Below, piece after piece: positions 27,948-51,565 of a DNA stretch of 64,000 bases. The position numbers and the translations under genes are program-made. Position 1 is the first letter of the stretch. Each line of letters starts with the position of its first letter. The notes under the pieces were generated by a model. The model saw only the letters and a program-made list of their open reading frames with translations. It did no database searches and was not told where the DNA came from. Location of the stretch: positions 1-64,000 of the forward strand of contig JAJXZS010000044.1 in NCBI GenBank assembly GCA_021779955.1. Reading direction: 5' to 3'. Source of the DNA: Chloroflexota bacterium. Lineage in GTDB: Bacteria > Chloroflexota > Anaerolineae > Anaerolineales > Anaerolineaceae.

Positions 27948-28685
27948 TCACGAGATGGTGAGCTTCCTGTCCTCAGAACTGCGTATAGCCAATATTATCT
28001 CTTCAATCGTTGGAGATTCTATTGTGAAGTTATTGGCGCCCAAAAATTCATTCAAGCTGTGCGCATCGCCGCCGCGGAGGAGTGGAAACGACTTTATTTG
28101 GGGGAATTGCGATTCAATACGACTGATGGAGAGGTGACGCGAGATCTCGAGAGCCTCGATGGGAATGTCTGTGGGTACGAAGCCCAGGTTCTCGATGAGG
28201 CCAAACGCTTTACGGTCGACATGCGCGGGAATGAACAGACCATCCAACGAATCGACAAGATTGAACGCCTGCGTGATGGTCAGGCTTGTTGAGATAATGA
28301 GAAGCCTGTCTTCCCGCCGTATGAACTCACCAGTTTCATCCACCACGAATTGCTCGCCAAAGTGCTCAGGTTGATTCTGCATTCGGGGAAGAGAGGCATC
28401 CACGACTTTCTGCAGTTCCTCAAGCTGGTCGAGCCGGTCGAACAGGCACAGGCAATGCACCTCTTCCGAGGTCTGCAGCTCCATCCCGGGCAAAACCGTG
28501 AGGGGCAAGCCGGTCGCGGCTTTTTGGACAGCCTGCACATTCGCGCTTGAGTTGTGATCGGTAATGGCGATGATGTCGATCCCTTGTTCGATGGCAGTCT
28601 CCACGATCAATGGCGGGATCATCTCCACCTCGGCGCACGGGGAGAGTACCGTATGAACGTGCAATTCAGCGCGATAAGTTTTCAA
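27948..28685 (-). CDS. PHP-domain phosphoesterase-like protein
   Basis: The 245-aa protein has the PHP metal motifs: 'ELHVHTVLSPC' (HxH), 'AITDHNSS' (DH), 'PGMELQT' (E), 'PAHVDR' (H) and 'RGGDAHSL' (DAH). The family includes DNA polymerase-associated phosphatases, histidinol phosphatase and nucleotide-cleaving enzymes. Its substrate here is unknown. It lies in the accessory cassette upstream of the hydrogenase genes, 18 bases after a DRTGG gene. Confidence 0.87.
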   Translation of the reverse strand: MKTYRAELHVHTVLSPCAEVEMIPPLIVETAIEQGIDIIAITDHNSSANVQAVQKAATGLPLTVLPGMELQTSEEVHCLCLFDRLDQLEELQKVVDASLPRMQNQPEHFGEQFVVDETGEFIRREDRLLIISTSLTITQAFNLVDSLDGLFIPAHVDRKAFGLIENLGFVPTDIPIEALEISRHLSISRIESQFPQIKSFPLLRGGDAHSLNEFLGANNFTIESPTIEEIILAIRSSEDRKLTIS

Positions 28686-28703
28686 GAGAACTCTTGACGT
28701 TAT

Positions 28704-29060
28704 CTATTCCAGTGAAGATTTACACCTGATGCCCAATTCCCACAACTTGCCGGCGATTTCAAAAGTAGTTTTTTTGGTCGATAATAGAATGACGCCTTCT
28801 TCGTTCGCTTTGGTGATGGTTGCATCTTCTGGCGAGGCGCCTTCGGTAATGATGATAGCGGACAGGTCCAGCAGCGAAGCCACTGCAATGATGTTGCCGT
28901 GCGCCTGAAGGGTGACCCAAATCGAATGCCGGGCGGCGCCTGACATTACGCAGCTGAGCAAGTCGGCTGCATAGCCACAGGACGGTTCGAAGGCTGAAAA
29001 CTCTTTTGCTTCGGTTAATGGAGTAAGCTCCAGTGCGTCGATAATTTGCTGCAAATTCAT
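28704..29060 (-). CDS. DRTGG-domain protein (second of two)
   Basis: The 118-aa protein is a single DRTGG-like domain, with 'GYAADLLSCVMSGAARHSIW' and 'VASLLDLSAIIITEGASP' followed by 'GVILLSTKKTTFEIAGKLW'. The domain occurs with CBS pairs and in HPr-kinase-like proteins and is thought to bind small ligands; no catalytic residues are evident. ATG 29060 follows the CBS-ATPase stop by one base, so translation is coupled, and AAGGAGAG precedes it. Confidence 0.8.
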   Translation of the reverse strand: MNLQQIIDALELTPLTEAKEFSAFEPSCGYAADLLSCVMSGAARHSIWVTLQAHGNIIAVASLLDLSAIIITEGASPEDATITKANEEGVILLSTKKTTFEIAGKLWELGIRCKSSLE

Positions 29061-29061
29061 C

Positions 29062-30060
29062 TCAACTCTCCTTGTTTTGACCGAAGCCTTCACCCATCAC
29101 TTCTTGGTTGGGCAGAAAGATCTTCATTTTAAGGTTTGTGCCTTTTCCAATGATCGATTCGAGGCGCATCGAATCCACGCAGCGCTGAATGTTAACCAGG
29201 CCCATGCCTGCGCCAAAGCCCAATTCGCGAACATCATCATCGGCGGTGGAGAACCCGGGGCGCATCGCAAGATCCACATCTTCGATACCTGGTCCGTCAT
29301 CGTAAGCGTTGATCGCAATTTGATGCGGCTCGATTTCGGCGCGAATTACGCCTCCATTTGTGGTGTGGATGATCAGATTCATTTCAGCTTCGTATACCGC
29401 TATCCCAGCCCGCCTGGCGATCTGCGGAGTTGCACCCAGGCGCAGCAACGCGCGTTTTATTTTCGATGAGGCAGCGCCGCCGAGGACAAAGTCGCCTTTC
29501 TTGATGTTATAGCGCAAGATCAGACTTGAACGGTCGCTCTCGATATCCTCAAAGAGGTGGCTTGCGCGGTAGCGCCTGACTTCCTCTTCATGATAATCGT
29601 GCTGCAGAGCGGCTAGAATGCCGCGGGTAAGATCGCCCTTGGTGATAATACCCACCAGGCTGTCATGCTCATCGAGCACAGGAAACCGCCCGTAATGGGT
29701 GGCTGCAAATTGCTTCAATGCTTCGACAACCGGATCTTTGCTGCGGATCGACTGTGGATTCGTGGTCATGTAATCGGAAATTGAAGCGGCCAGATCGTTC
29801 AATCGCAAGCAGCGAATCAGGTCTTCCATGCTGATCAAACCCACAAGCTTGCCTTTGGCAACAACAGGCGCACCGGAGATGCGTTCTTCACGAAATGCTT
29901 CGAGCGCATCCTGCATCGTGGCATCCGGGGCAAGCGTCTTCAGGTCCTTGGTCATCACCTCTTCAACCTTGAGTTCGTAGGCCAACTCTTCGGTTCGGGT
30001 GATGTTTTCGGCATCCTGATCGGTCATGGGCTTCTTTTGACTTTCAGAAACCGGGCTCAT
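29062..30060 (-). CDS. Tandem CBS domains fused to an anti-sigma-type ATPase domain
   Basis: The 332-aa protein has a CBS pair (about residues 32-150, 'VEEVMTKDLKTLAPDATMQD' and 'ISDYMTTNPQSI') that binds adenosine nucleotides in other proteins, then an HATPase_c domain (about 180-320) of RsbW/SpoIIAB type with N box 'YEAEMNLIIHT', 'YDDGPGIED' and 'GFGAGMGLVNIQ'. It joins energy sensing to an ATPase. No sigma factor or anti-sigma antagonist lies nearby, so the target is unknown. It lies between two DRTGG genes. Confidence 0.88.
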   Translation of the reverse strand: MSPVSESQKKPMTDQDAENITRTEELAYELKVEEVMTKDLKTLAPDATMQDALEAFREERISGAPVVAKGKLVGLISMEDLIRCLRLNDLAASISDYMTTNPQSIRSKDPVVEALKQFAATHYGRFPVLDEHDSLVGIITKGDLTRGILAALQHDYHEEEVRRYRASHLFEDIESDRSSLILRYNIKKGDFVLGGAASSKIKRALLRLGATPQIARRAGIAVYEAEMNLIIHTTNGGVIRAEIEPHQIAINAYDDGPGIEDVDLAMRPGFSTADDDVRELGFGAGMGLVNIQRCVDSMRLESIIGKGTNLKMKIFLPNQEVMGEGFGQNKES

Positions 30061-30080
30061 TCGATCCTCTAAAATGAAGA

Positions 30081-30452
30081 CTAATCACAGGCTGGGCTGT
30101 TCACAGACCTTTCAAGACTGGGTAAGCCTGCCTGGTAGAGTTTTCCGCATAAAGCAAACATTCCAAACGGTGATGAGATCAAGGCGATATGTTCTTTTTC
30201 GGCGAGCTCAAGCGTCTCTCTTGCCGGTACTTTTCCGCGCACAAGGATAATGGCAGCCACGTCCGCCATTTGGGCCGTGCGAACGACCTGGGGATTGCAT
30301 AAGCCGGTTAAAAGAACAGCTTCGGGTTGAATCGATGCCAGCACGTCGCTCATCAAATCTGCGCCACATCCGCCTCTAATCTCACGCATGAGATTGGCAG
30401 AAGGATTCAATAACGTACCATCGATCAGGGTGACTAACTCTTTGACATTCAT
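30081..30452 (-). CDS. DRTGG-domain protein (first of two)
   Basis: The 123-aa protein matches the domain of the gene at 28704: 'REIRGGCGADLMSDVLASIQ', 'NPQVVRTAQMADVAAIILVRG' and 'IALISSPFGMFALCGKLYQ'. It heads the accessory cassette of the hydrogenase island. ATG 30452 (GGAAG seven bases before it) is preferred over an upstream GTG at 30488. The upstream region is divergent to hisS. Confidence 0.78.
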   Translation of the reverse strand: MNVKELVTLIDGTLLNPSANLMREIRGGCGADLMSDVLASIQPEAVLLTGLCNPQVVRTAQMADVAAIILVRGKVPARETLELAEKEHIALISSPFGMFALCGKLYQAGLPSLERSVNSPACD

Positions 30453-30630
30453 ATAAACTTCCGGAAGATGAGAATTTTGCAGGTCCACAAATGGAATATA
30501 AGACTGAAATAATTTACCATTTGAAGTTTATCATGAATACCGGGGTCAGATGCCATAATTCGAAGCGAACTTCGGCACCAATCTCTTTTATACGTTAAAA
30601 TCATCCTTAATCTAGATCAAAGGAAATCCT

Positions 30631-32062: not shown

Positions 32063-33007
32063 TTATTGATCCTGCAGGGGGATATCCGACATGTGGACGC
32101 TGCGTGGGTTTAGCCAACTCAAGAACCCTTTGCCTTTGCGTTTCTTGGGGACGATCTTATCATAAGCAACCAATAGTAAGTTCCCGCAAATCAGCAAAGC
32201 ACCGATCCACTGTACAGGGGATAGCCGCTCTCCCAACCAGGTGAATGCCAGCACAACCGTCACGAGCAATTCTGCCAGGCCCAACAAAGCCGTTTGGATT
32301 CCGCCCAGGTGCTTGACTCCCAAAAATAAGGTAAGGCGCGAAATGAATGTGATTACACCGAGTGAAATCAGCGGCCACCAAATCACATCGACTGCAGGCA
32401 GCGACGGCTTGAAGCTGATGAATGCGATGACCACAGTAATCGCCATGGCGAGCAGCGTATAGAAAGTCACAGTGGGGGCTGGAGCGTCGTAAAGAACGCG
32501 CTGATTGATCAGCAAATGAAGGGCGTAAAGTGCTGCTGCGCCAATCATCATTCCAGCGCCAGCCAGGTCGACAAGGGTATGTGAATTACTGACGAGTAAT
32601 AAGATGCCGGGTACCGAAATGGTCAAACGGATAAGTGTCATCCGGCTGGGAGGCTGGCTATCCAGGAAGAGCCATAACGCCACAAACAAGGGGTAGAACG
32701 AGTATAGCAATTGCCCGACGCTCGCATCGAGCAGCGAAAGTGCGTTGTAATAGAGGATCGAACCGAGCCCGTTCACAACCCCGGCTAAAACGCAACCGAT
32801 CAATCCTACCGGGTAGATGTAGAAGAAAGACCGTTTGAAGATCAACAGAAACAAGAAGAGTAGAAGAACAGCCAGCGTAGACCTCACGGCAACAACAGCA
32901 AGCGGTGTAAAACCGAAGAGCATCGCTTGCTTGCCGAACACTGGTGTCAACCCCAGGAACAGGGCTGAACCCAAAGCTGCTGAAATTCCTTTCTGTCTAC
33001 CGTTCAT
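32063..33007 (-). CDS. EamA/DMT superfamily permease
   Basis: The 314-aa protein has ten hydrophobic segments arranged as two EamA repeats, the second starting near 'GAGMMIGAAALYALHLLINQ'. The proline-containing 'GIQTALLGLAELLVTVVLAF' and 'TWLGERLSPVQWIGALLI' segments are typical. DMT permeases export amino acids or other metabolites. Its start is 5 bases after the stop of the threonine synthase-receiver gene, so the two are probably co-expressed and the permease may move a product of that enzyme. Confidence 0.88.
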   Translation of the reverse strand: MNGRQKGISAALGSALFLGLTPVFGKQAMLFGFTPLAVVAVRSTLAVLLLFLFLLIFKRSFFYIYPVGLIGCVLAGVVNGLGSILYYNALSLLDASVGQLLYSFYPLFVALWLFLDSQPPSRMTLIRLTISVPGILLLVSNSHTLVDLAGAGMMIGAAALYALHLLINQRVLYDAPAPTVTFYTLLAMAITVVIAFISFKPSLPAVDVIWWPLISLGVITFISRLTLFLGVKHLGGIQTALLGLAELLVTVVLAFTWLGERLSPVQWIGALLICGNLLLVAYDKIVPKKRKGKGFLSWLNPRSVHMSDIPLQDQ

Positions 33008-33012
33008 TCCTT

Positions 33013-34698
33013 TTATTTCAAGAGTGAGTTCACTTCATCCAGCAGGTCGTCACTCATGAAATTTCCTTTTTGCATCAAGGATTGGATATGACCTTTCAGC
33101 CGTCCTTTTTCGAACGCGGTCAATTCCTTGGCGGTGACAACAATGATGGGGATTTCACGCGTTTCAGGCTGCGACTGAAGCGTATCCATGACTGAAAATC
33201 CATCCATGTCGGGCATCATCAGGTCGAGCAGAATGAGGTTTGGACGCTCTTTGCGGATGATCTCCACCGCGTCTTTGCCATTCGATGCTTCAACAAGGAC
33301 GTAATTGCCTTGAGATTGTAGAATCCGCCTGACCAGCTTTCGCACGTCAGGCTCGTCATCGATGATCGCAATCTTGGGGAATTTGTCGATTGTTACACTG
33401 GATAAGGCCGCAAGCAAGCCTTCCTCGTTCTCCTGGACAGCCTTTGCGGTTGCATCGATATTATGCTCCCAGCCTTCACCCAGCATACTTCTTTCAACGG
33501 GAACGGTGTGCCCCGTGCAATTGATCACAACCACTTCATTGGGCTTGATCGTGCCTGCCCTGAACAATTTGACCACACCGGCAAAAGCCACGGCTGCCGC
33601 TGGTTCGACGGATAAGCCTTCCATCTTGGCCAACAAATGCATTGCTCTGAATGCCTCTTCATCACTCACGCTTTCGATTTCTCCGCCGCTGCCTTTCTGG
33701 ATCGCTTTGCGAAGCAACGTGTAAGTACGGCCCGGATTCCCTGTCGCCAATGTTTCGATCCGTGTGCGCGGAGAAAGAACGGGGATGACCTCATCTTTGT
33801 TCTGTCGCCATGCATGCACCATGGGCGCGCAGCCTTCAGTCTGTATCAAGCCAAGTTTTGGCTGCTTTTCAATCAAGCCCATCAATTTCAGCTCGCGAAA
33901 GCCCTTATCCGCGCCAAGAGGTCCCATTCCGCCGCTAACCGATTGAATATACCAGTCAGGCGCCATCCATGGCGTCTTTGGCGGCTCGATATCTTTCAAT
34001 TCGTGATTATGCACCAAATTCGAGATCTGTTCTGCGATCTCGAATGCAATGGTCTTCATCGACTCAACGCATGGGATACTTCGCGCCCCCAGATCGAGGA
34101 ACATGTTCCTCTGCCGCGAAAACTCCTCTGCCAACTGCTTGGTGAGGTCGTATGAACCGGTGATCTTGACTACCTGGGTTCCGTATAGCGCGACCTCGCG
34201 CATCTTCACTGCAGGCACAAGGCTTGTGAGGAACGCCCAAAGCTTGATTCCCGCTCGCGATGCATATGCTGAATAGGAGATGGCTACATTTCCGGTCGAA
34301 GCGCAGACCATCTCTGTGATACCAGCTTCCTTCAATACAGCGATGGTAATGGCAGCCTGGCGGTCTTTGAAAGAGTTGGTCGGTCCCTGCCGCTCGTCTT
34401 TAATGTAAAGATTAGGGAGTCCCAGCATGAGCCCTAGATTTTTGGCATGGATCAGGGGTGTCCCGCCTTCACCCAGGGTCAAATCTGGAATGATCTTCTG
34501 AATCGGCAGCAGTTCGCGGTAACGCCAAAGGTTGAATGGGCGGTTTGCGATTTGCTTCAGAAACGTCTGTGCCAGAACAGCATAGTTATAGTGCGCTTCC
34601 CTCCAGAGGCTGCCGCATTTGGGGCAACCGGGTTTCTTGGGATCGTAGGGAGTTTTGAAACCGCAATCAAGGCATTCTGCATAGAAATAAAGTGGCAT
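33013..34698 (-). CDS. Threonine synthase-like PLP enzyme fused to a response-regulator receiver domain
   Basis: The 561-aa protein has an N-terminal zinc ribbon (Cys9, Cys12, Cys25, Cys28), then a fold-type II PLP domain (about 40-430) with 'NSFKDRQAA' (Lys111, PLP Schiff base), 'CASTGNVAISYSAYASRAG' and 'VSGGMGPLGA' phosphate loops. That is the layout of threonine synthase, which makes L-threonine from O-phospho-L-homoserine. Residues 443-560 are a complete receiver domain: 'IIDDEPD' acidic pair, Asp492 in 'LLDLMMPDMDG' as phosphoacceptor, Thr522 and Lys544. Such a fusion would let a histidine kinase regulate the enzyme. It follows the hybrid kinase gene by 14 bases. Confidence 0.9.
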   Translation of the reverse strand: MPLYFYAECLDCGFKTPYDPKKPGCPKCGSLWREAHYNYAVLAQTFLKQIANRPFNLWRYRELLPIQKIIPDLTLGEGGTPLIHAKNLGLMLGLPNLYIKDERQGPTNSFKDRQAAITIAVLKEAGITEMVCASTGNVAISYSAYASRAGIKLWAFLTSLVPAVKMREVALYGTQVVKITGSYDLTKQLAEEFSRQRNMFLDLGARSIPCVESMKTIAFEIAEQISNLVHNHELKDIEPPKTPWMAPDWYIQSVSGGMGPLGADKGFRELKLMGLIEKQPKLGLIQTEGCAPMVHAWRQNKDEVIPVLSPRTRIETLATGNPGRTYTLLRKAIQKGSGGEIESVSDEEAFRAMHLLAKMEGLSVEPAAAVAFAGVVKLFRAGTIKPNEVVVINCTGHTVPVERSMLGEGWEHNIDATAKAVQENEEGLLAALSSVTIDKFPKIAIIDDEPDVRKLVRRILQSQGNYVLVEASNGKDAVEIIRKERPNLILLDLMMPDMDGFSVMDTLQSQPETREIPIIVVTAKELTAFEKGRLKGHIQSLMQKGNFMSDDLLDEVNSLLK

Positions 34699-34712
34699 GG
34701 TAAGAAATTTTC

Positions 34713-37700
34713 CTAGCTCATTGATGAAGTTTTGTATTTCTTGAGTGCAGCATCGAGTTCAGTCAATAACTCTTCTTCTCTTAGCGTGCTCTTTGTGATC
34801 ATTTGGGGACCGTAGTCTTTCAATTGCTTCCGCTGCTCGGATGTCAGGTCTACACCGGTCAAAATGATGACGGGGATTCTGCTCAAACGCATTTCTGAGC
34901 GTAACCGTTCGAGCACCTCAAAGCCGTTCATTCCCTGCATGAAGAGATCCAGGAGGATGATATCAGGAGTGAGTCGTTTGAGAGCATCCAGGCCAGCCTG
35001 ACCGCTTTTAGCTAGAGTGGCATGGACTTTTCCGCCCTGTTCGAGCATTTTTTGCACGAGGTGCAAGTCATCCTCGTCATCATCGATGACCAGGACTTCG
35101 CGGAAGTTGTTGTCGCGATCGAGGCGGAAGATGGCATTGGCAAGATCATCTGCGGCAAACGGTTTGACCAGATAATCAGATGCTCCCATGCTGAAGCCTT
35201 TTTCCTCTTCCTCAAGGATTGAGCAAACCAGGATGGGGATATTGCGGGTTTGTTCATTCTCTTTCAACTCGTTGATCAACTGCCAACCGTCCTTTTGTGG
35301 CATCATGATGTCCAGGGTGATCGCAAAAGGCTTCAGTTCGATCGCTTTTGCGACAGCCATGTCCGGATCGGTTAGGGGGACGACTTTATAGCCGTTGGGT
35401 TCGAGGAAGCGTTCGTAGAGTTCGATGACCTCTGCATCATCATCGATGGCAAGAATGACATTTTCGCCATGCTTCAACTGATCCTGGTCGACAGGGCGTT
35501 TTACTTCAGGCAGAGGCAAGGTAAAGTAGAAGACACTCCCCTTGCCAACTTCGCTGCTCATCAAGCCGATCTGGCCACCGTGCATTTCGATCAGTGAGCG
35601 CGAAATCGAGAGGCCGAGGCCAGTCCCACCGGTCTTGCGTGTCGGCGAATCATCCACCTGTGAGAAGCGCTGGAACAGCTTCACCTGGTCAGCCGGCGCG
35701 ATTCCGATACCGGTGTCCGTTACAGTGACAAGCACTTCTTTCTTGCCGAACGGGTTTTCGGTGATCTTGGCTTCCACGGTGATCGAACCTTTTTCGGTAA
35801 ACTTGACCGCGTTCGAGATCAGGTTGATCAAAACCTGGCTGATACGTGTCTCATCCATCATCAAGCGGGGGAGCGTAGCGGGGATCTTCTGGATGAGTTC
35901 GATTGATTTCTCTTTGACCAGACCGGATGTACTGGAAATCACACTGTTGACAATATCGCTCAGATTGATTGGCTCGAGCTGCAATTCCATCTTGCCGGCA
36001 TCGATCTTGGACAGGTCGAGGATTTCATTGATCATTGTGAGCAGGTGCATGCCAGACTTGTAGATAGCGTTGATGTCCTGTTCCTGTACGTCGTTGATCG
36101 GGCCGTCGATGCCTTTGAGGATCACGCGCGAGAAGCCAATGACAGAATTGAGAGGGGTGCGCAGTTCATGACTCATATTTGCCAGGAACTGACTCTTCAC
36201 GCGGTCCAATTCCTGCATTTCCGAAACGGCCTTCTGGCTCATTTCATAAGCGCGGGCATTTTCAATGGCGACTGCAATTTGATCGGACAGAATCTGCAGC
36301 ACACTCAACTCATCCTGGGTAAATGCGGATGCGCGTTTGGATTGAATGTCCAGCGCACCGATGACTTTACCCGCAATCTTGAGCGGGATGGCCATCTCAG
36401 AGCGCGTGTCGGGTAAGAGTGGATTGGGGTAGTAGATTGGACTGTAGCGCACATCGTTCACGACCACAGGATTGCCAGAGGCGGTTGTATTGCCTATAAC
36501 CGACTTTGAGCCAACCGCAAGCTGATGATTGTGTTTCTTGAGCTCTTCACCTGCACGACCTGTGGATTCTTTGACCTGCGCGTAAGTACCGGTTTCGTCC
36601 ATCAGGAAGATTGAGCAATGATAGAACCCGAAACGATCCTTCAAAAGAGTGACGATTCGGGCAAGTAGGGTTTCCAGTGATAGCGTGCTTGTAGTATCGC
36701 GGGCGATTTCAGCTGCAGCCTGAAGCTCGATGGCCCGGCGCTGAGCTTCGTTGAGCAGCCTCTGGCGCTCGATAGCGACCGTGATGCTGTTGCCTACCAC
36801 CTGGAGTAGATGAATATCATCATTGCGATAATCGACCGGTTTCGTCGCGCCGGAGGCCAGCACGCCAATCGTGGCGCCCGCAGATTGCAGCGGAACAAAA
36901 CATCCACTGATGAATCCCAGACGTGAGAAGACCTTTTGCTGATCGGGTGTAATGGACGATTTGTTCAGGTTGTTATAAACGAAGGGTTCCCCATTATCGA
37001 AGTCGATGAAGTCGAAAGCCTCGAATGGGACACGCTCATTCGCCTTGTAGTACTTACCCTGCGATGTGTAACAACCTACGATGTCCAGTTCGCCTGTGCG
37101 GTTTTGAACGCGCCCGGGAGCCACAAACAGAAGAAGCTGATCGGCATTCTTGGGCATGGCGCTTTCACCTACCAGCTTGACCAGATCGTGCAAATCGACT
37201 GCGTTCGAAATACCGCTCGAAACCTTATACAAGAGTTCGGTTTCCGAGAGAGCTTCCTGGGTTCGCTCGAACAATTGCAGGTTTTCGATAGCCGTAGACA
37301 TCTGGTCGACCAGGGGCGGGAATGTTCGAATTTCCTGATCGGTAAACTCATGCTTCAGGCTGGACTGCAGCAGGAACACACCGATCTGCTTGTTCGAAGA
37401 CCACAAAGGAAGTACGGCCATTGCCAGGATATTTTGCCGCAGCAAGATTTCGCGCAAGCCCTGATCGATCTGCGCCGTAGTGATGTCGTTGTAGAAACCT
37501 GAGTCTTCACGGATGAATATGGGTTCGTAAAGGTCGCGCAAGTATTCTGTGCCTGCAGGGGGTGGAGGTGTACCAGCACCGCTGTGGTAGTTGGCTTCGA
37601 CGTTCATCCGCACCAGTTGACCGTTTTCGTCATAGGTGAACAGAACGAGGACGCCGCGATTGATTTCCTGAACGCTTTCACCTGAAATGACCGCTGTGAT

Positions 37701-39962
37701 CATTTCGGGCATGTTGTTTGCGAGAGCAAGTTTATGAGATGCTGAGTACAGACTCTCGGTTTCATCCAACGAGGTCTTCAACTGCGAAAGTAAACCTTCG
37801 CGGATGAGAGTGTTCGTGTAGGCATCGGAAGCAATACGCAGCACCGAAATTTCATCCTGCGCCCAGACATGCGCTTCCGTGTGATTTTCGAACGCGATGA
37901 ATCCGATCTGCTTATCCTGTGATGGGATCGAGAGGAGCAGAAGGGATTGGGCGTTGTGCTTCTTCAGGAATTCTTGTTCCGGGGAGGATGGTCCGGTCGA
38001 TGAAATCACTGCCGCGTGCCAACCGTTACCGGATAGCGATTTCTGCCAATTCGCGAATTGTCCGATCGGGACGAACTCGGGTCGTGGTAGATTGACTTTC
38101 TTTTGCAGCGCTGGTGTCTCATAGAGAGAGACAACTCTCCAAATCGGCTCGTTCTTTGAATCGGCATCCTGAACTGCGTAATAAACTCGCTGGCACAGAG
38201 ATGCTTTCGAAAGGAATTCGAGAACCTCGGGTGTGGCGGCCACACCATGCTCACTTAACGTAGCGACCGCCTGGGTCACGTTCATCTGGAACCGTTCGCG
38301 CACTTCAATGATTTCAAGTGCATGGCGGATCTCTGCGAACAAATTCGCGTTCTCCAATGAGGTTGCAGTCTGGCTGGCAATTGTTGAAAGTAGCTCTTGC
38401 TGGATCTGGTCGAAAGCGAATTCTTTCGAAAAATCGAAAACGCTGATCACACCGATCGACCGGTCGCCGGCAAGTAGGGGGACCGCAAGCAGCGACTGGG
38501 GAATACCTCCCGGATGATCAAGTGCGCTGTCGCTGAGTGCTTGTGCCGCGTCACTCTGGATCAGTACTGGGGCTCTTTTATTCAGGATGATTTCTTGATA
38601 CCCATGCGAGAATGGGCGGTCTGGAAGCATGATCGTTTCATTGTTCATCACGCAGACTGGGAAACTCAACATGTTCGTTTCGCGGTCGATAAGCGTGATG
38701 AGCAGGTTTTGCGTGTTCAACATCTGTTGGATGCTGTTCGAAAGGATCGCGTAGATCTGTTCACGGCTTACCAGGCTGCTCAAGCGCTGACCGATGGTGT
38801 TCAGTGTAGCCAGATCTCTGTTGCGGCGTAATGTTTCCTCTTCTGCTTTGACCCTCTCGGTCAATTCCTTGCGTACGGCCGAATATAGTTGGGCATTTTC
38901 GAGGGCCAGACCGAGCTGCTTGGTCACTTCCTCGAGCAAAAGGCGGTCATCTTCTGTCCAAACCCGTTCAGGCGACACATCGACGAGTTCGATCACGCCC
39001 GCTTTTTCATTTCTAACGCTTAGAGGTGAGGCCAGCACTGCAGGAGTATCTTGATATGCCTCGTTCGAGATGACCGAATTCGAATTGAAGCTGTTTAGCG
39101 CTTCCTGCGTCCAAACATTCTCAGCAGATTGGAACTTGTCATTCGAGAAAGAGACACCCGCGATCGGTTCGGTTTTGATCGCGATTCCGTCGATCATCGT
39201 GCTCGCGCCAAGTCCTGGCAAAGGCCCAAGAGGCGCGGTTTTGGCGAGTTTGAAGGAATCTGATGCGCTCGAAAGTGATTTAGATTCATCAATCGCGGGT
39301 TTTTGCTGACCGAACGAGCCCGTTTGCTTGTGGATTTTTCTTGCAGGCAGCGGTTTGAGATCCGGCATGGGATTTACCTTGCTGTCCATGCGGGGCATCT
39401 CAAGGTCAGAATCGTCAGGTATCTGCAATTTACCTGTATCCACCTTTTGTGGGCTTGTCTTGGCCGTCTCGGGAGACTTTTGAATGGCAGCGGCCTCATC
39501 GAAGTGCTCGCTCAAGAAATCGTCAAGCGATGTACTCTCACTTTGTGCTTCATACCCATCATTGACCGGCAGAGCCTCACCTTTCACGCTGCTCAACTGT
39601 CCTTTTTCATCCAAAACTGCAGAGAAGGTACAACGAATGGCGCGGTACTCTGTTTTAGCAGACTGAAAATGTAATTCCGCTTCTACCGGATATTTTCCAT
39701 GCTTGAAGATGCTTCCCAGCGTTGAACGGTCTTCTTTCACAAAATCCATGCCCAATAAAGATTTTCCGGTCAATTGTTCGGGGTAGACACCCATCAATTC
39801 CGCAACATCTCTGCCACACTTGACGAATCGTCCTTCTAGATCCGTTTCCCATTGGAACGATTGCGGTAAAGTATCAGCTCCCCCGGCTGTCGATTCATCC
39901 GAGAGCTTGATCAAGTTAGAAAACAGTGCGTTTAGCCGGCTATCTTGATTTTTCTTAGGCAT
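34713..39962 (-). CDS. Soluble PAS/multi-GAF hybrid histidine kinase with two receiver domains
   Basis: The 1749-aa protein has a PAS-like domain (about 40-135), a low-complexity linker (140-260), six GAF or GAF-like domains (about 265-365, 400-545, 560-725, 745-900, 920-1075, 1100-1245), HisKA with 'NMSHELRTPLN' (His1265), HATPase ('NLISNAVKF', 'TDTGIGIAP', 'GGTGLGLSIS'), receiver 1 (Asp1551 in 'LDIMMP') and receiver 2 (Asp1672 in 'LLDLFMQG'). No membrane segment is visible. It is the only complete kinase in this operon, so it may phosphorylate the receiver domains encoded around it. ATG 39962 has AGGAG upstream; a TTG three codons earlier is too close to it. Confidence 0.93.
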   Translation of the reverse strand: MPKKNQDSRLNALFSNLIKLSDESTAGGADTLPQSFQWETDLEGRFVKCGRDVAELMGVYPEQLTGKSLLGMDFVKEDRSTLGSIFKHGKYPVEAELHFQSAKTEYRAIRCTFSAVLDEKGQLSSVKGEALPVNDGYEAQSESTSLDDFLSEHFDEAAAIQKSPETAKTSPQKVDTGKLQIPDDSDLEMPRMDSKVNPMPDLKPLPARKIHKQTGSFGQQKPAIDESKSLSSASDSFKLAKTAPLGPLPGLGASTMIDGIAIKTEPIAGVSFSNDKFQSAENVWTQEALNSFNSNSVISNEAYQDTPAVLASPLSVRNEKAGVIELVDVSPERVWTEDDRLLLEEVTKQLGLALENAQLYSAVRKELTERVKAEEETLRRNRDLATLNTIGQRLSSLVSREQIYAILSNSIQQMLNTQNLLITLIDRETNMLSFPVCVMNNETIMLPDRPFSHGYQEIILNKRAPVLIQSDAAQALSDSALDHPGGIPQSLLAVPLLAGDRSIGVISVFDFSKEFAFDQIQQELLSTIASQTATSLENANLFAEIRHALEIIEVRERFQMNVTQAVATLSEHGVAATPEVLEFLSKASLCQRVYYAVQDADSKNEPIWRVVSLYETPALQKKVNLPRPEFVPIGQFANWQKSLSGNGWHAAVISSTGPSSPEQEFLKKHNAQSLLLLSIPSQDKQIGFIAFENHTEAHVWAQDEISVLRIASDAYTNTLIREGLLSQLKTSLDETESLYSASHKLALANNMPEMITAVISGESVQEINRGVLVLFTYDENGQLVRMNVEANYHSGAGTPPPPAGTEYLRDLYEPIFIREDSGFYNDITTAQIDQGLREILLRQNILAMAVLPLWSSNKQIGVFLLQSSLKHEFTDQEIRTFPPLVDQMSTAIENLQLFERTQEALSETELLYKVSSGISNAVDLHDLVKLVGESAMPKNADQLLLFVAPGRVQNRTGELDIVGCYTSQGKYYKANERVPFEAFDFIDFDNGEPFVYNNLNKSSITPDQQKVFSRLGFISGCFVPLQSAGATIGVLASGATKPVDYRNDDIHLLQVVGNSITVAIERQRLLNEAQRRAIELQAAAEIARDTTSTLSLETLLARIVTLLKDRFGFYHCSIFLMDETGTYAQVKESTGRAGEELKKHNHQLAVGSKSVIGNTTASGNPVVVNDVRYSPIYYPNPLLPDTRSEMAIPLKIAGKVIGALDIQSKRASAFTQDELSVLQILSDQIAVAIENARAYEMSQKAVSEMQELDRVKSQFLANMSHELRTPLNSVIGFSRVILKGIDGPINDVQEQDINAIYKSGMHLLTMINEILDLSKIDAGKMELQLEPINLSDIVNSVISSTSGLVKEKSIELIQKIPATLPRLMMDETRISQVLINLISNAVKFTEKGSITVEAKITENPFGKKEVLVTVTDTGIGIAPADQVKLFQRFSQVDDSPTRKTGGTGLGLSISRSLIEMHGGQIGLMSSEVGKGSVFYFTLPLPEVKRPVDQDQLKHGENVILAIDDDAEVIELYERFLEPNGYKVVPLTDPDMAVAKAIELKPFAITLDIMMPQKDGWQLINELKENEQTRNIPILVCSILEEEEKGFSMGASDYLVKPFAADDLANAIFRLDRDNNFREVLVIDDDEDDLHLVQKMLEQGGKVHATLAKSGQAGLDALKRLTPDIILLDLFMQGMNGFEVLERLRSEMRLSRIPVIILTGVDLTSEQRKQLKDYGPQMITKSTLREEELLTELDAALKKYKTSSMS

Positions 39963-40080
39963 ACTGGGCAATCTCCTGAGCCAGATTCCTCTGCTGCTCT
40001 TGCCAATCTTGCATCTCGATTTCCATGCTTCTTCTCATCGTATCCATTCAATTTCGGCCGAATTGCTTCCTGCTGCCCGT

Positions 40081-42993
40081 TCAATCATTTGCTGATATGA
40101 ATGGTTTGAGGGAATTTGTTCGGTCCTCTTTTTGGTCGCCGCCAGGCAGGTTGATAATGATTTGCCCGTCTGTGATTCTTAGGTTTTGTTTTAGCTCTTC
40201 CAACGTCACTCGTAGCATTTGTTGCGGATCATTCGTCGAACGTATCTTGCTTGTGATCTCTAGCACTCTTCGGTCTCGCTCAGCACGCCGAACGGTGGAT
40301 TCGAAGAGGCGTGCATTTTCCAAAGTCTGCGCAACCTGGTCCGAGACCGCCTGCACGGTAGTCAGTTCGTTTTCGCTCCACTCGAAATCGTCAGAGCGAT
40401 TTTCCTGGAGGTGAATAACACCAATCGATTCACCGCGGAGCATGATCGGCACAGCCATAATGGATTGCTGTGTCGGATGTTCACCTTTGCGCGTCGTCGA
40501 CCTGAAGATGGGGCGTCCGGTTTCGAGAACGGTGTTGATCTCGGGAATATCTTCTTTCGTCGGAACCAGACCCTCTGGAGTGAACTTGTAGCTTGTATTG
40601 CCTGGCTCACGCATCTTGCGAGTCCATTCCTGGTTCAAGTATCTTCTATGCAGGCTCTGCGCCTCATCGAGAGCAGCACGGGTGTTTTCATAGAGCTGGT
40701 TATTGCTGATGGCAATGGCGATCTGGTCAGCTAGCGTGGAGAATAACTCGATGTCTTCGGGGGAGAAAGCGTTCGGTTCCACGCTCTGGACGTCTAGCGC
40801 GCCAATGACTCTGTCTTCTTCTTTCAGCGGAAGGGCCATTTCTGAACGAGTCTCGGGAAGATCAGGGTTGTTGAAGAACACGGCATCCTGACCAACGTCA
40901 GTTGCAATGCGGGGTTCCCCCGATTCAGTCACATAACCCACAATACCGGCCTGTCCGACAGCAAGCTTATGCTGGCGTTCGAGCATCATGCGGCCACCGG
41001 CCGAATTGGCAGCGCGAAGCACGGCATACTCTGCTTTTTCATCGATCAAGAAAATACCCACGTGATAGAAGCCAAAACGTTCATTGATCAGGGTGGTCAC
41101 GCTGGTCAGCAGCGTTTCGAGATCGCGGTTGGCAACAATGTTTCGCGCCACGTCAGACACTGTTTGCAGTTGAGCAGATCGGAAACTGAGCGCGTCGTTT
41201 CTTTTGGCGAGTTCTTCGGTTCTTTCCTTTACACGCGTTTCCAGGGTATCGATGAAAGTTTTCAAATCGCGAGTCATCGAGTTGAACACATTTCCGAGCA
41301 TACCAATCTCATCTTTCGAGCTGACTTTGGCTTCCGCACCCATATCGCCTGCGGAGATTTTTTCCGCCGCTTCGGTTAATTGGAGAATTGGACGGGTGAA
41401 CAGGTTAGCCACGAAGATGATCGACATGCCGACGATTCCGGCGATGATCGTCGCGATGATGGTGGAAAGGCGGTTCTGCGAGGCGCGCGCTTCGATCAGG
41501 TTTGTCTGTTCCTGCAGGAAGACGACTTTCCAGGGATGCAGAGCAAGGGTTACAGCCGTTGCTGATTCCGTACGGTTTCCCTGTTCGCCTGCCATCGCGA
41601 CTGTAAAGAATTGACCGGCATTTCTTTGATTTAGGCTGTCATTCAGTTCTGTTTGATTAGTTGATAGAAGCTCACGAGGGAGATATGAGGGCAGTCGTTG
41701 GGCAAGTACCAGTGCCTGGAAAGTCTCCAGATCCATTGGGACGAGCGTACGATAAATCAGATTGGGGCTGTATCCATCTGCAAGCCGCAACCCGTTTTCA
41801 TCGAGAAGCATGGGATATGAACGTGGGCCGATCAGACCGACATTGGCCTGGACAATGGTTTGAAGCAAGAGGGCATCGAAGCGGGTTCGCAAATAGCCGA
41901 TCGTCTGATTGGTGACATCTTTGATAGGCGCGATAAAAATGAGATAGGCGTCGCGTGTGCCGCTCGGGAAATAGACCCCGGAAGAATATGGCAGGCCAGT
42001 GCTCGCTACCGTCTTGAAATACTCTGAGGATGCTTCTGTTTGAGAAATCGATGCCGCGTCTGTGTCGAACAGATTTGCACCATTGATATCGAGAAGGCCA
42101 TAGGACGGCTGGTAAAGCTTCTGCTTGGTCTGCAATGAAGTGAATGTCGTCTGGAGCTCGGTTTCCTCCACGCTTCCCGGGCGATCGCTGGCTTTCAATG
42201 CCAAATAACGTTGAATGGCAGGGAGAGTGGTTTCGGTCTGTACTGAATCAAGGTTCGAGCTAAAGAAATCGTTGAGAGAGGCTGCCGTTTGCTCCGCTGC
42301 AACCTGCAGCGACTGGTTCGATTGAGCTTGAATGGCATCTTGGGTATATTGGTTCGATATCACGGAAAGAATCGCAAGTGGCACGAGTGTGACTACCAGA
42401 CCGCCCAACAATAATTTGACACGGATCGAAGCAGTGATCCATCCAAATATGAACAAAACGATCAAGATGAATGCCAGGACTCCTGCTGCGATAAATATGC
42501 CCAGGGTGAGGCTGGTATTGGATGCCTGGTCGACGAGATTCAAGTTTCCTGCCAGCGCAGATGCCACTGCGGCGACAAGGCCCACAAAAATAGACAGTTC
42601 GATATACTGTTCCCTCAAGGCGGTTGAGCCCAGGATTACGGCGAAAATGATTGCGATTAATGCGATTCCGAGGGAAACGTCTGACGTGAGTACCAGGGAG
42701 GTAATAACAAAGGCGATCTCCGTAGTTACGACGAAAGCGAATCCACGCGCTTGCGACTTGGTCTCCCAGAGTTGAAAGATGGTAAACAGACCGGTAAGAC
42801 AGGCGACGCCAAATGCTGCAGCTATGGTAAAGTATTGCCACTGGCGTGTGATCGCTCCCAGTATAAAGGCGCCAATTGTAAGGACCACGGTGAAGACGAC
42901 AAAAACATCGAGAATCACGCCCCTGGATATTCCCTGACGTTCAGATTCGACGCTGTCGCTTACAATCTCGGAAGGTTTTTCTATCTTGCTCAT
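40081..42993 (-). CDS. Membrane dCache-HAMP-GAF sensor without kinase domain
   Basis: The 970-aa protein has about six membrane helices in its first 185 residues, a seventh at about 191-212, a large outside domain (213-508, dCache-like, 'PIKDVTNQTIGYLRTRFD'), a membrane helix at 510-530, HAMP (531-585), a coiled coil ('LETRVKERTEELAKR'), a full GAF domain (610-765, 'RFGFYHVGIFLID', 'NPDLPETRSEMALPL', 'GALDVQS'), a divergent GAF (780-895) and a short GAF-like tail (905-948). No HisKA, HATPase, GGDEF or other output is present. Confidence 0.9.
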   Translation of the reverse strand: MSKIEKPSEIVSDSVESERQGISRGVILDVFVVFTVVLTIGAFILGAITRQWQYFTIAAAFGVACLTGLFTIFQLWETKSQARGFAFVVTTEIAFVITSLVLTSDVSLGIALIAIIFAVILGSTALREQYIELSIFVGLVAAVASALAGNLNLVDQASNTSLTLGIFIAAGVLAFILIVLFIFGWITASIRVKLLLGGLVVTLVPLAILSVISNQYTQDAIQAQSNQSLQVAAEQTAASLNDFFSSNLDSVQTETTLPAIQRYLALKASDRPGSVEETELQTTFTSLQTKQKLYQPSYGLLDINGANLFDTDAASISQTEASSEYFKTVASTGLPYSSGVYFPSGTRDAYLIFIAPIKDVTNQTIGYLRTRFDALLLQTIVQANVGLIGPRSYPMLLDENGLRLADGYSPNLIYRTLVPMDLETFQALVLAQRLPSYLPRELLSTNQTELNDSLNQRNAGQFFTVAMAGEQGNRTESATAVTLALHPWKVVFLQEQTNLIEARASQNRLSTIIATIIAGIVGMSIIFVANLFTRPILQLTEAAEKISAGDMGAEAKVSSKDEIGMLGNVFNSMTRDLKTFIDTLETRVKERTEELAKRNDALSFRSAQLQTVSDVARNIVANRDLETLLTSVTTLINERFGFYHVGIFLIDEKAEYAVLRAANSAGGRMMLERQHKLAVGQAGIVGYVTESGEPRIATDVGQDAVFFNNPDLPETRSEMALPLKEEDRVIGALDVQSVEPNAFSPEDIELFSTLADQIAIAISNNQLYENTRAALDEAQSLHRRYLNQEWTRKMREPGNTSYKFTPEGLVPTKEDIPEINTVLETGRPIFRSTTRKGEHPTQQSIMAVPIMLRGESIGVIHLQENRSDDFEWSENELTTVQAVSDQVAQTLENARLFESTVRRAERDRRVLEITSKIRSTNDPQQMLRVTLEELKQNLRITDGQIIINLPGGDQKEDRTNSLKPFISAND

Positions 42994-43018
42994 TCTTTCC
43001 TCCGGCCGTTAATGCCTG

Positions 43019-44743
43019 CTATTCGGCTGCCGCCGTCTTCAACTGAATTCTTACCTCGGCGACACCCAGAGATCTACCCAATTCGGTTGCTGTGGTTTTC
43101 AAAATCGAATCGATATCAGATGCTGCACGGACCTTATCAGAAATATTGGCGACGAGATGCTCTCGCTCCGCGCGTTCCTGAATTTCTTCGAGCAATCGGG
43201 CATTTTCAAGCGCAAGCGCCAGGCGGTCTGCAGCAGTGTTGACAAGGGCCTGCATTTCTACGGGAAGATTCTCGCCCTGGTACTTGATATTCAGCACTCC
43301 AAGAACCTGATCGCGTAACTTAATGGGAACCGCCAGGATCACGCCTTGCTTATCGCTCGCATCCTCTTTCGTGAGCGGAGCTACGATCGGCTTGCCAGCG
43401 GACATCGCTTCACGATAAAAACGTGCCCGCTCTTCCGTGGGTTGAGCCTTGGCTTCGGCATAGCGAAAGTTTAACTTCTTCCGTGAACCCTTGAGGTGCG
43501 TCTGCCATACTCGGCCTGTGAACTCGCGGCTTTTTTCTTCCAAATCTTCCAGGCTGGCCTTCAATACCTGGATTTGGCCCAGTTTATCGATCGAGGATGC
43601 GAGTGTGTCGGCGATGGTTTGAATGACATCAGCGTCTTCGGTGTCAAATTCATCAGGATTTTGCGATTGAAGGTCAAGCGCGCCGATGATTTGAGATCCA
43701 AGACGAAGGGGGACGGCCATCTCCGATCTCGTCTGGGGCAGCAAGGGATTTTTATAGTGCATCGAGTCGAGTTCGACGTCTGAAGCGATGCGAACCTCTC
43801 CTCTCGCCACAACATAGCCAACGACGCCTTCTTCTCGTAAGCGGAGTTGGTGTTTTCGGGCAAGCATTTCAGCGCCGGCATCGCCTGTAGCCGCTTTCAG
43901 CACAGCAAACTCATTGCGTTCATCCTTTAGAAAGATGCCGGTATGATAGTAACCAAATTGCGAGCGAATCAATTCGACGGATTCCTTGAGCAAGGCATCG
44001 AGATTGGTCTGCTGTGCAATTTCGCGTGAGATTTGACGGGCTGCTACCATGCGGAATTTTCTGCTGTCAAGTTGATCCTGGAGAGTGGTCACTTGTAGAT
44101 TCAGATCTTTGTTACGCGAGGAAATCTCCTGATCACCCGATTGCACGCCGCTGATCAGCGCCATAAAATCGCTGAAAACGTCAGCGACAACGGATGAGAG
44201 CAAGTAAGTGAGGAAAAGCATGATCGTGACGATGCTCATCCACGAAAGCGTCGCATTCACTTCACTCATGATCCCGTTAGGGACGATGAACCCTTCCCCG
44301 ATAATGACGGCAAGGGCAATCAGAATTGTGGCAGAGAAACCAAATACCCAAAACCATCGGCGACTGGGCAACAGGAGCGCTGCAACAACGACAGCGGTGA
44401 AGAAATAGAGTATCCCATTCGCTCCAAGGCCTTGAATCATTTCGCTCAAGATGCCTGTGCCGACAAACGCGACGATCAAGATCCAGGTGCGCAACCCTGC
44501 GCTCAACGAGCGAACGAATGCCGCAATAAATGTCAGGACGAACAAAATGATGACCGCAGATCCAGAGATGAGATTCCGCGATTGAAGTGCTGAAAACAAA
44601 TTGAGGAAGAGCAACACTGTCGCCAATATCAGGCTACCATTAGCGATCTGCTGCAATCCATGATCGATGATTGATTTGATCTCCGGAGCCTGGCCTGGAG
44701 TCGACTCAATAGATTCGAGTTGAGAAGGCGATTTGGCGATCAT
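43019..44743 (-). CDS. Membrane GAF protein without kinase domain (574 aa)
   Basis: Five or six hydrophobic helices (about 35-190) are followed by a coiled coil, one full GAF domain (about 240-385, 'QFGYYHTGIFLKDE', 'NPLLPQTRSEMAVPL', 'GALDLQS'), a divergent GAF ending 'ADRLALALENARLLEEIQ' (about 400-515) and a short tail 'DKVRAASDIDSILKTTATEL'. It looks like the 970-aa protein without its Cache-HAMP part. It overlaps the next upstream gene by 4 bases (ATGA), so translation is coupled. No catalytic output domain. Confidence 0.9.
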   Translation of the reverse strand: MIAKSPSQLESIESTPGQAPEIKSIIDHGLQQIANGSLILATVLLFLNLFSALQSRNLISGSAVIILFVLTFIAAFVRSLSAGLRTWILIVAFVGTGILSEMIQGLGANGILYFFTAVVVAALLLPSRRWFWVFGFSATILIALAVIIGEGFIVPNGIMSEVNATLSWMSIVTIMLFLTYLLSSVVADVFSDFMALISGVQSGDQEISSRNKDLNLQVTTLQDQLDSRKFRMVAARQISREIAQQTNLDALLKESVELIRSQFGYYHTGIFLKDERNEFAVLKAATGDAGAEMLARKHQLRLREEGVVGYVVARGEVRIASDVELDSMHYKNPLLPQTRSEMAVPLRLGSQIIGALDLQSQNPDEFDTEDADVIQTIADTLASSIDKLGQIQVLKASLEDLEEKSREFTGRVWQTHLKGSRKKLNFRYAEAKAQPTEERARFYREAMSAGKPIVAPLTKEDASDKQGVILAVPIKLRDQVLGVLNIKYQGENLPVEMQALVNTAADRLALALENARLLEEIQERAEREHLVANISDKVRAASDIDSILKTTATELGRSLGVAEVRIQLKTAAAE

Positions 44744-46398
44744 GACTTCACCTCAGTACCAACTGTTCGCTTTTTCTTGATGCTGAAATCCTCGGGCGGA
44801 ATGAGTGAAATTGAAGCTTCGAACACCGAAGGAAGATTACCGAATTCTTCCACAGCAGTTTTGAGAATTTCTTCGATCGTGAATGCTCTGGAGAATTGAG
44901 TCGAGAGTTCGTTCAATTTTTGCTCTTGAGCTGCTGCGCGCTGAGTCTCTTCGATCAGACGGGCATTTTCCAGCGCTGAGGTCGTTTGGGCAGAAATTGT
45001 CTGCAGGAATTCGTTTTGCTCCGGCTGGATTTCGGTTCCCTCGATCTCAAGATTGAAATAACCAATCACCTCATCACGAAGGACAAGCGGAATCTTGACC
45101 TGGGAAGTCGTTTCTGGACTTGAGGTTACCTGAGGATTCTCATAGTTGAATTTGAGTTCTCCCACCTGGTCGATCTCGTCACCCCAGGCTTGCTGCACAA
45201 AAGCCTTGTTCAAGATCCGGATATCCTCCAGCGCTTTTTGCGTTCGGTTGAACGAATTGGCATTTTCAAGTGCTACCGCAAGTGAATCTGCTACGCTCTG
45301 GAGCAGGAGCACGTCGTTTTCATCGAAGGCATTCGGGCGGTCAGATTGGATTGACAGAGCTCCCAGGATATCTGTGGAACTCTTGATGGGCAGCGCCAGC
45401 TCTGACCTGGTTGCAGGGAGGTCTGGATTGTCGAAGTGAACAGCTTCTTCGCCGACGTCCAGAGCGATACGCGCTTTGCGCGTTTGAGTTGCCCAACCGA
45501 TCATGGAGTAACCGCCAACCGCCAGGCGGTGCCGATTGGCGGCCATCTTTTTGCCCTCATCTCCTGTGCCATATCTCAAGATGGCGTACTCACGTGTCGG
45601 ATCGACAAGGAACACGCCGACATAATAAAGAGTGAATGCGCTCTTAAGGCGTTCAGCAACTTGCTGGATCAAGAGGCCAGGATCGAGAATCGAGGCCAAA
45701 GACTGTGAGATTTCTGAGCCTGCGCGCAATTGAGCCAGGCGGTGCTGCAGGTCCGCCGACTGAGCTTCATATCTTGCTTGCAGTTCATCGCTCTCTGCCA
45801 ACGCAGAAATCAACTTTTGATTCTTTTTAAGATAGGAAGATTTGATGGAAAGAATTCCGAAATTTGCCAGTGCTGCCACCAGGATCACAACTACTGTGTC
45901 CAGAAGAAGCGATCCATGGGTGATGATGATCATGTTGGCAAAGATATTTGATGACGCGAGTGCAAGGCAAAGAATCAGGGTCGCCAGACCGATGCCATTG
46001 ACTACGAGCGCCTGGCGGCTTTCGAGCAAACTTGTACCCAGTATCGAGAAGGCGATCAACGCGAGCAGAGTCTCACCTGACCAGCCTGTCTTGGTGAAGA
46101 GGATCAGAATGAGTAAGTACATGAGTGCCAGGAAAGCCATCGACCGAACCGTAAAGCTGATTCTCCGACTGAGAAATATTGCCAGCGAAACGACAAGCAG
46201 CAGACCGAAGCCAATCACCAGAATGAAATCAGGAGAACCGATCAAAAGGCCAGTGGTCAGGAGCGTAGCCAGGGCACCGGCAACGATGCCAACGATCGCC
46301 AGGATGTGCAGAGATTCTTCCTGCCAGCGGGCCAGGTAATTAGAGGGATCGATCGATGTGGGAACTGAATTGGGGAAGAGCGATCGCAGATAGTTCAT
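44740..46398 (-). CDS. Membrane GAF protein without kinase domain (552 aa)
   Basis: This is a close relative of the preceding 574-aa protein: N-terminal membrane helices (about 30-190), a coiled coil, a full GAF domain (about 225-375, 'YYVGVFLVDPTREYAILRYG', 'NPDLPATRSELALPI', 'GALSIQS'), a divergent GAF (about 385-490, 'TTSALENARLIEETQ') and a tail 'STQFSRAFTIEEILKTAVEE'. The 4-base overlap with the 1431-aa gene upstream and with the 574-aa gene downstream shows the three are one translational unit. Ligand unknown. Confidence 0.9.
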   Translation of the reverse strand: MNYLRSLFPNSVPTSIDPSNYLARWQEESLHILAIVGIVAGALATLLTTGLLIGSPDFILVIGFGLLLVVSLAIFLSRRISFTVRSMAFLALMYLLILILFTKTGWSGETLLALIAFSILGTSLLESRQALVVNGIGLATLILCLALASSNIFANMIIITHGSLLLDTVVVILVAALANFGILSIKSSYLKKNQKLISALAESDELQARYEAQSADLQHRLAQLRAGSEISQSLASILDPGLLIQQVAERLKSAFTLYYVGVFLVDPTREYAILRYGTGDEGKKMAANRHRLAVGGYSMIGWATQTRKARIALDVGEEAVHFDNPDLPATRSELALPIKSSTDILGALSIQSDRPNAFDENDVLLLQSVADSLAVALENANSFNRTQKALEDIRILNKAFVQQAWGDEIDQVGELKFNYENPQVTSSPETTSQVKIPLVLRDEVIGYFNLEIEGTEIQPEQNEFLQTISAQTTSALENARLIEETQRAAAQEQKLNELSTQFSRAFTIEEILKTAVEEFGNLPSVFEASISLIPPEDFSIKKKRTVGTEVKS

Positions 46399-50700: not shown

Positions 50701-51165
50701 TTATGCATATTCCCATACAGATTCACCCGCCAGGATCCTTCGAATCTGGTCAGGGAAACGGTCTGGATCGAGCGGTTTTCCAATAAATCCGTTGAAACCT
50801 GCGAGCTTTGCTGCCCTCATTTGATCGAGCCCCGCCACCGCAGTCACGGCAATCACAGGTAATTTCCTCAGCCCTTCTGATTGGCGGATCTTGCGCAGCG
50901 CCCCGTAACCGTCTTCGTAAGGGAGGCGGATGTCCATCAGCACCAGATCGAGATACGGCATGGTGGAGGCAAATTCAACGACTTCGAACCCCGAGGTTTT
51001 CCATTCGCAAAGCACCTTAAGGGATTCGAGCATGCGGGCAATCAACATGAAATTTCCGGGGTTATCCTCCACCACCAGGATCATGGGTGGCCTGCCCGGT
51101 TTATTTTCATTATCTTGAGGGACTTTCGAAGAAAAGCCAGGGATTTTGGGTGGGATTTCAGTCAT
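50701..51165 (-). CDS. Stand-alone receiver-domain protein (154 aa)
   Basis: A single response-regulator receiver domain: 'LVVEDNPGN' acidic pocket, 'LVLMDIRLPYEDG' with the phosphoacceptor Asp, 'VIAVTAVAG' Thr and 'GFIGKPLDPD' Lys. A proline-rich N-terminal 30 residues precede it. No output domain, so it may act as a phosphate shuttle or partner in a phosphorelay. It is 10 bases upstream of the 1431-aa gene. Confidence 0.92.
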   Translation of the reverse strand: MTEIPPKIPGFSSKVPQDNENKPGRPPMILVVEDNPGNFMLIARMLESLKVLCEWKTSGFEVVEFASTMPYLDLVLMDIRLPYEDGYGALRKIRQSEGLRKLPVIAVTAVAGLDQMRAAKLAGFNGFIGKPLDPDRFPDQIRRILAGESVWEYA

Positions 51166-51193: not shown

Positions 51194-51565
51194 CTAGCCG
51201 ATGAATCTACGGATTTGACCCAACAACTTATCGATATCGATTGGCTTTTCTACATAACCGTCACAGCCAGCCAGAAGGCTTTTTTCCCGATCGCCGCGCA
51301 TCGCGTTGGCGGTGACTGCAATGATCGGAATATTCTCCAGCCCTGGAACCGTCTTGAATTTCGTGGTCAGCGTATAGCCATCGATGATTGGCATATTGAT
51401 ATCCATCAAGATCAAGTCAGGGCGGTAATGTCGCAGCCTTGAGATAGCCTCGTATGCATTCGTGGCTTCCAATACCTGATATGAAGCAGACATCAGGAGC
51501 CTGCGAATTAATAGGCGATTATCAGGATTGTCTTCGATGTGCAGAATGATCTTAGTTGAGTTCAT
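51194..51565 (-). CDS. Stand-alone receiver-domain protein (123 aa)
   Basis: A complete receiver domain: 'LHIEDNPDNRLLIRR', 'LILMDINMPIIDG' with the phosphoacceptor Asp, 'IIAVTANAM' and 'GYVEKPIDIDK'. No output domain. It is the first gene of the signalling operon. ATG 51565 is preceded by GGAAG at suitable distance. About 95 bases further upstream a TATAAT sequence (minus strand, 51660-51665) could be the operon's -10 box, but no -35 box matches it. The rest of 51566-51789 shows no other signal I can name. Confidence 0.92.
   Translation of the reverse strand: MNSTKIILHIEDNPDNRLLIRRLLMSASYQVLEATNAYEAISRLRHYRPDLILMDINMPIIDGYTLTTKFKTVPGLENIPIIAVTANAMRGDREKSLLAGCDGYVEKPIDIDKLLGQIRRFIG

Follow-up and report, generated by a model that had tools for sequence, protein, structure and literature searches.

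Coding region 33013-34698 of the window (the whole stretch of 64,000 nucleotides that was analysed) joins an enzyme of the PLP fold-type II (PALP) to a response-regulator receiver (REC), next to a histidine kinase gene. This raises three questions: whether the joined frame is real, which reaction the enzyme could catalyse, and whether the kinase could control that reaction.

Domain architecture and predicted structure of the fusion

The components of the fusion gene are the following.

33013-34698, minus strand: PALP-REC fusion gene, 561 aa, from an ATG start to a stop and without an internal stop
34615-34674, minus strand: zinc-ribbon cysteines 9, 12, 25 and 28, invariant in 80 of 80 fusions
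33514-34479, minus strand: PALP domain (fold-type II PLP enzyme), aa 74-395 (PF00291, 4.1e-58)
33379-33501, minus strand: linker, aa 400-440, pLDDT below 50, in which a short EEGLLAAL segment is kept
33016-33372, minus strand: receiver, aa 443-561, with Asp447/448, Asp492, Thr522 and Lys544 (PF00072, 4.1e-22; receiver fold)

A check of the frame showed that the opposite (plus) strand of 33013-34698 contains many stops. An earlier note, made from the letters alone, had described a complete PLP enzyme and a complete receiver in one uninterrupted frame, and the Pfam domain search confirmed this description, with scores of 197.5 bits for PALP (PF00291; gathering cut-off 35) and 78.9 bits for Response_reg (PF00072; gathering cut-off 30.2) over aa 443-544. 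The residues named in that note (Cys9, Cys12, Cys25 and Cys28, Lys111, Asp447 and Asp448, Asp492, Thr522, Lys544) were correct, as were the distances to the neighbouring genes: 14 bases (34699-34712) separate the fusion from the stop of the kinase gene and 5 bases (33008-33012) from the start of the permease gene. The PLP lysine is Lys111, and the residue expected to contact the pyridine nitrogen, Thr395, is T or S across the 80 aligned fusions.

The AlphaFold2 model of the fused receiver alone showed the full (beta-alpha)5 fold (pLDDT 86, pTM 0.81), and its best PDB match was RR468 of T. maritima (TM 0.84-0.85). This canonical receiver has the same predicted fold and all the phosphorylation residues of the fused receiver; however, RR468 stands alone while the fused receiver is C-terminal to an enzyme. 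A degenerate receiver was ruled out, all key phosphorylation residues being kept. The AlphaFold2 model of the full-length fusion was weaker (pLDDT 76), with the linker disordered at 397-426, and no interface between the PALP part and the receiver was fixed in it, the linker having a pLDDT below 50. The solved folds closest to the PALP part of the model were those of threonine synthases.

Distribution and conservation in Chloroflexota

The earlier note had proposed a survey of the genomes that carry the fusion, and this survey yielded about 80 relatives across the Chloroflexota, a little-known group of bacteria, with the same fusion and with the key residues of both domains kept. The bacterial genome scan gave 36 fusion loci, all with record titles naming Chloroflexota or its groups, and searches in related genomes gave further loci, including some in single-contig genomes such as G035. 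A search of 400 Chloroflexota genomes found 56 genes with an identity of at least 51%, spread over 42 genomes and all in frames of at least 549 aa; the next matches in the same 400 genomes showed at most 40% identity and were mostly frames of about 420 aa. Every Chloroflexota member with at least 50% identity and a gene not cut by a contig end had a frame long enough for the receiver. No relatives over the threshold were found in three further phyla, those of an Actinobacteria, a Limnohabitans and a Paenibacillus genome, each sampled with 296-299 genomes; this absence is only suggestive because the three samples had no internal positive.

The alignment comprised 80 fusion sequences, that of the window included, a few of which are one record present twice. 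The four zinc cysteines, Lys111, Asp448 and Asp492 were each present in 80/80 fusions and residue 447 was D or E in 80/80. Residue 522 was T or S in 79/80, the remaining sequence having a gap, and residue 544 was K in 79/80, the gap being in L037, whose gene ends at a contig edge. Ser134, Thr135, Asn137 and the glycine-rich loop (S255, G256, G257, G259) were invariant in the 80 aligned fusions. The EEGLLAAL segment, located about 14-22 residues ahead of the acidic pair of the receiver, was present in most of 79 fusions.

That sequencing or assembly joined two separate genes is a negligible explanation of the frame: nothing was found in its favour, and the same architecture in about 80 loci of independent assemblies already refutes it. 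With dozens of independent genomes carrying the fusion, the frame is no assembly error.

Two loci had unusual features. Locus L034 belongs to a genome of 6.4 Mb (G439) recorded under Candidatus Aquidulcis; four paralogues of the fusion occur in this genome, whose assembly may be mixed. At L130:8671-12144 there is a longer frame (1157 aa from stop to stop), in which the fusion is followed by further receiver-like sequence.

Receiver-free relatives in Cyanobacteriota

Homologues at 50-52% identity were found in 4 of 292 genomes from the phylum of a cyanobacterium. Three of them (L160-L162) are unfused, in frames of 399-427 aa, and the fourth (G468) runs off its contig. L160-L162 have the subfamily (about 46-52% identity), the SGGMGP loop and the FKDRQ motif in common with the fusions, whereas they are without a receiver and neither a kinase nor an EamA neighbour was recognised beside them. 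The genes around the cyanobacterial loci (Mg-chelatase-like, citrate transporter, radical SAM, GH3 and MFS) showed no common pattern and gave no substrate clue. These homologues narrow to Chloroflexota the claim that every member of the subfamily is fused. The occurrence of receiver-free homologues in Cyanobacteriota shows that the enzyme can exist without the receiver. The lone forms may be ancestral or secondarily receiver-free, and the tree is compatible with both.

Genes surrounding the fusion in the window

The fusion gene lies in a run of genes on the same strand, and the members of this run that concern signalling and transport are listed below.

32063-33007, minus strand: EamA-family permease, 314 aa (PF00892, 1.8e-26)
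34713-39971, minus strand: hybrid histidine kinase, 1752 aa, with GAF domains, HisKA, HATPase and two receivers
34737-35114, minus strand: terminal receiver (REC2) of the kinase, the closest paralogue group of the fused receiver in the receiver tree
35994-36197, minus strand: HisKA dimerisation/phospho-acceptor domain of the kinase (PF00512, 3.3e-19)
40081-42993, minus strand: kinase-less sensor, Cache-HAMP-GAF (domain search; dCache match below its cut-off)
43019-44743, minus strand: kinase-less GAF sensor
44740-46398, minus strand: kinase-less MASE11-GAF membrane sensor
46395-50690, minus strand: kinase-less HAMP-GAF-PAS sensor
50701-51165, minus strand: single-domain receiver, head of the run
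51194-51589, minus strand: single-domain receiver, head of the run

The phospho-acceptor of the kinase is His1268, in the motif SHELRTPL, and its H, N and G boxes are intact. The four kinase-less GAF sensors lie in a row (40081-50690, minus strand) and their C-terminal tails are related to one another; all four may signal to the single hybrid kinase located downstream of them. Relatives of the Cache-HAMP-GAF sensor are found upstream of the kinase in other loci. Elsewhere in the window, a compact run of genes for DRTGG, CBS + HATPase, DRTGG and PHP domains (27948-30488, minus strand) is possibly another signalling cassette.

Conservation of the operon and a second operon type

Comparison of the neighbourhoods of 79 relatives showed that the linkage to kinase and permease, from which the earlier note had proposed a single pathway, is strongly conserved, although the neighbour counts are not independent, the 79 loci being related to each other. 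A histidine kinase was located directly upstream on the same strand in 73/79 relatives (in 2 of the 73, only the receiver tail of the kinase was seen beside the fusion gene) and an EamA permease directly downstream in 58/79. The three genes usually overlap or lie within tens of bases of one another. In L039, L041 and L042, the kinase is downstream of the fusion instead.

In most of the EamA-type (type A) relatives with enough flank, the kinase is preceded by kinase-less GAF sensors and by a ParA-like ATPase (AAA_31); in the window, the GAF sensors are present and the ATPase is absent at that place. The ATPase, of the ParA/MinD-like kind, was seen between sensors and kinase at L140:16120-16902 and L141:4993-5778, and its function may be to position a complex of sensors.

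In type B operons (L129, L131, L137, L138, L139 and L142), a kinase without receivers is followed by the fusion and then by a single-domain receiver, and EamA is absent. The obvious targets of such a receiver-less kinase are the receiver of the fusion and the single-domain receiver encoded next to it. In L138, L139 and L130, the fusion and the single-domain receiver are followed at a short distance by a PALP gene of the threonine synthase type; that of L138 (L138:7452-8696) scored 577.6 bits on NF006050. Two genes downstream of the type B fusion of L137, the gene at L137:7306-8352 combines a receiver with an adenylate/guanylate cyclase domain.

In the receiver tree, which was built on few columns, the fused receivers grouped with the terminal receivers of the kinases (SH-aLRT 92). 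This placement suggests a common source of the two within the operon.

Comparison with threonine synthases

The earlier note called the enzyme threonine synthase-like and supposed that it makes threonine. This identity was not supported by cut-offs, residues or tree. The fusion scored 230.5 bits on NF006050 (cut-off 303) and 150.3 bits on TIGR00260 (cut-off 167.1), and its scores on the other threonine synthase equivalogs were 170.6, 122.8, 111.4 and 110.1 bits for cut-offs of 421, 358, 301 and 266, respectively. Residues T88, N154, S155, R160 and N188 of the T. thermophilus enzyme, which we take to be its contacts with the substrate phosphate, are invariant in five solved threonine synthases and mostly replaced by V, M/R/L, A, S/C and G, respectively, in the fusion family, a difference to be read with caution given that an NF006050-type protein of the same genome is also without most of those residues.

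Two other proteins of the same genome, C29 (573.9 bits) and C19 (181 bits), passed threonine synthase cut-offs. A homoserine dehydrogenase is encoded in this genome, and no protein in it was above the ThrB cut-off for homoserine kinase. The tree placed the fusions together with the lone cyanobacterial homologues in one group outside all threonine synthase groups (SH-aLRT 100).

Threonine synthases (TIGR00260, NF006050; 1uim, 2zsj, 2d1f, 6cgq) and the fusion have in common the fold, the PLP lysine in SFKDR and about 30-35% identity, while the fusion differs in its scores below curated cut-offs, in the replaced invariant residues and in the added receiver. Cysteate synthase (TIGR03844; 9k3c, CapA2) resembles the enzyme part of the fusion in fold and in overall length (VIA Z 37.7), but the fusion scored 110.7 bits on its model against a cut-off of 324.9. 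Because curated cut-offs were missed, residues of the solved enzymes are replaced family-wide and better candidates exist elsewhere in the genome, the name threonine synthase is not supported.

Possible roles of the fusion

The explanation that we favour, and consider fairly likely, is that the fusion is a response regulator with a PLP enzyme as output, controlled by the kinase and acting on an amino acid or an amino-acid-like substrate. A true threonine synthase under kinase control is quite unlikely. The nearest solved folds and sequences and the best NCBIfam models are threonine synthases, a threonine synthase-type gene lies close downstream in three loci and homoserine dehydrogenase is present; these points are outweighed by the scores below every cut-off, the replacement of the five T. 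thermophilus residues, the separate proteins that pass the cut-offs, the lack of a ThrB above its cut-off and the separate clade.

The receiver could also be a docking or dimerisation module for a signalling complex, with phosphorylation having no effect on catalysis, as would be suggested by the long flexible linker and by the conservation of an operon that includes large GAF sensors and, in most relatives whose flank is sufficient, also a ParA-like ATPase. We regard this as unlikely, since both acids, Asp492, Thr/Ser522 and Lys544 are kept family-wide, which docking alone would not demand. A further alternative, in which the PALP part is not the output of the phosphorelay but informs it of amino-acid status as a ligand sensor or pseudo-enzyme, is very unlikely: the invariance of Lys111, Ser134, Thr135, Asn137 and the glycine-rich loop argues against this, as do the lone cyanobacterial homologues, which have the same motifs but no neighbouring relay, even though the rest of the operon consists mainly of sensors and relay parts and three type B loci adjoin a threonine synthase-type gene.

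For a response regulator with a PLP enzyme as output, we infer the following course from the architecture and the operon. The kinase-less GAF/Cache sensors and the GAF domains of the hybrid kinase would collect signals and set the activity of the kinase, from which a phosphoryl group would pass to Asp492 of the fused receiver, directly or via the kinase's own receivers. Phosphorylation would then alter the pairing or a docking surface of the receiver, with an effect on the PALP enzyme joined to it, probably a dimer: either its activity or its oligomeric state would change. A sensory signal would thus probably turn a metabolic reaction up or down directly and not via gene expression. The strongest indirect points for kinase control are the strict retention of the phosphorylation residues and the receiver-less kinase of type B operons.

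The substrate would be an amino acid or a similar molecule and need not be O-phosphohomoserine. Its product may leave through the EamA permease, a suggestion based on gene order that does not extend to type B operons. Because EamA is missing there and no EamA neighbour was recognised at the loci in Cyanobacteriota, the role of the enzyme cannot depend on export through this permease. We propose only tentatively that the whole is a two-component system whose direct output, without a transcription step, is the synthesis (and in type A also the export) of an amino-acid-like molecule.

Relation to known receiver-enzyme fusions

That a metabolic enzyme is an unusual output for a receiver, as the earlier note put it, was overstated, such proteins being a recognised class of response regulators (PMC5847659). 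Receiver-metabolic enzyme fusions are already known as a general kind, because a 2018 census noted repeated bacterial cases of a receiver on a standard metabolic enzyme and listed archaeal fusions with KaiC, BcsA-like and other partners (PMC5847659). In structure, the fusion belongs with the regulators that have metabolic-enzyme outputs: its receiver is covalently joined to an enzyme domain and the arrangement recurs in a lineage. Like PALP-REC, KaiC-REC and the BcsA-like glycosyltransferase-REC carry a receiver on a metabolic-type enzyme, are thought to serve environmental control and are lineage-restricted (PMC5847659). PALP-REC differs from them in its output, a fold-type II PLP enzyme with a zinc ribbon, and from the enzymatic-output regulators of that census (PMC5847659) in being phylum-wide rather than confined to a family or genus and in its conserved kinase-enzyme-permease operon. 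No paper describing a PALP-receiver fusion was found in the literature searched; Galperin's output-domain surveys of 2006 and 2010 were outside it, and a listing there is possible.

The automatic label of threonine synthase on such fusion genes calls for caution. Receivers on metabolic enzymes have been described as fusions bound to particular lineages and have received little study. The present fusion is a tractable case for a probable direct phosphorylation control of an amino-acid-type enzyme, because it is kept over a phylum with an adjoining kinase and because the kinase, the target Asp and the catalytic lysine are identified. If the proposed control is true, the phosphorylated PLP enzyme would be a signal-controlled synthase of a metabolite or of a signal.
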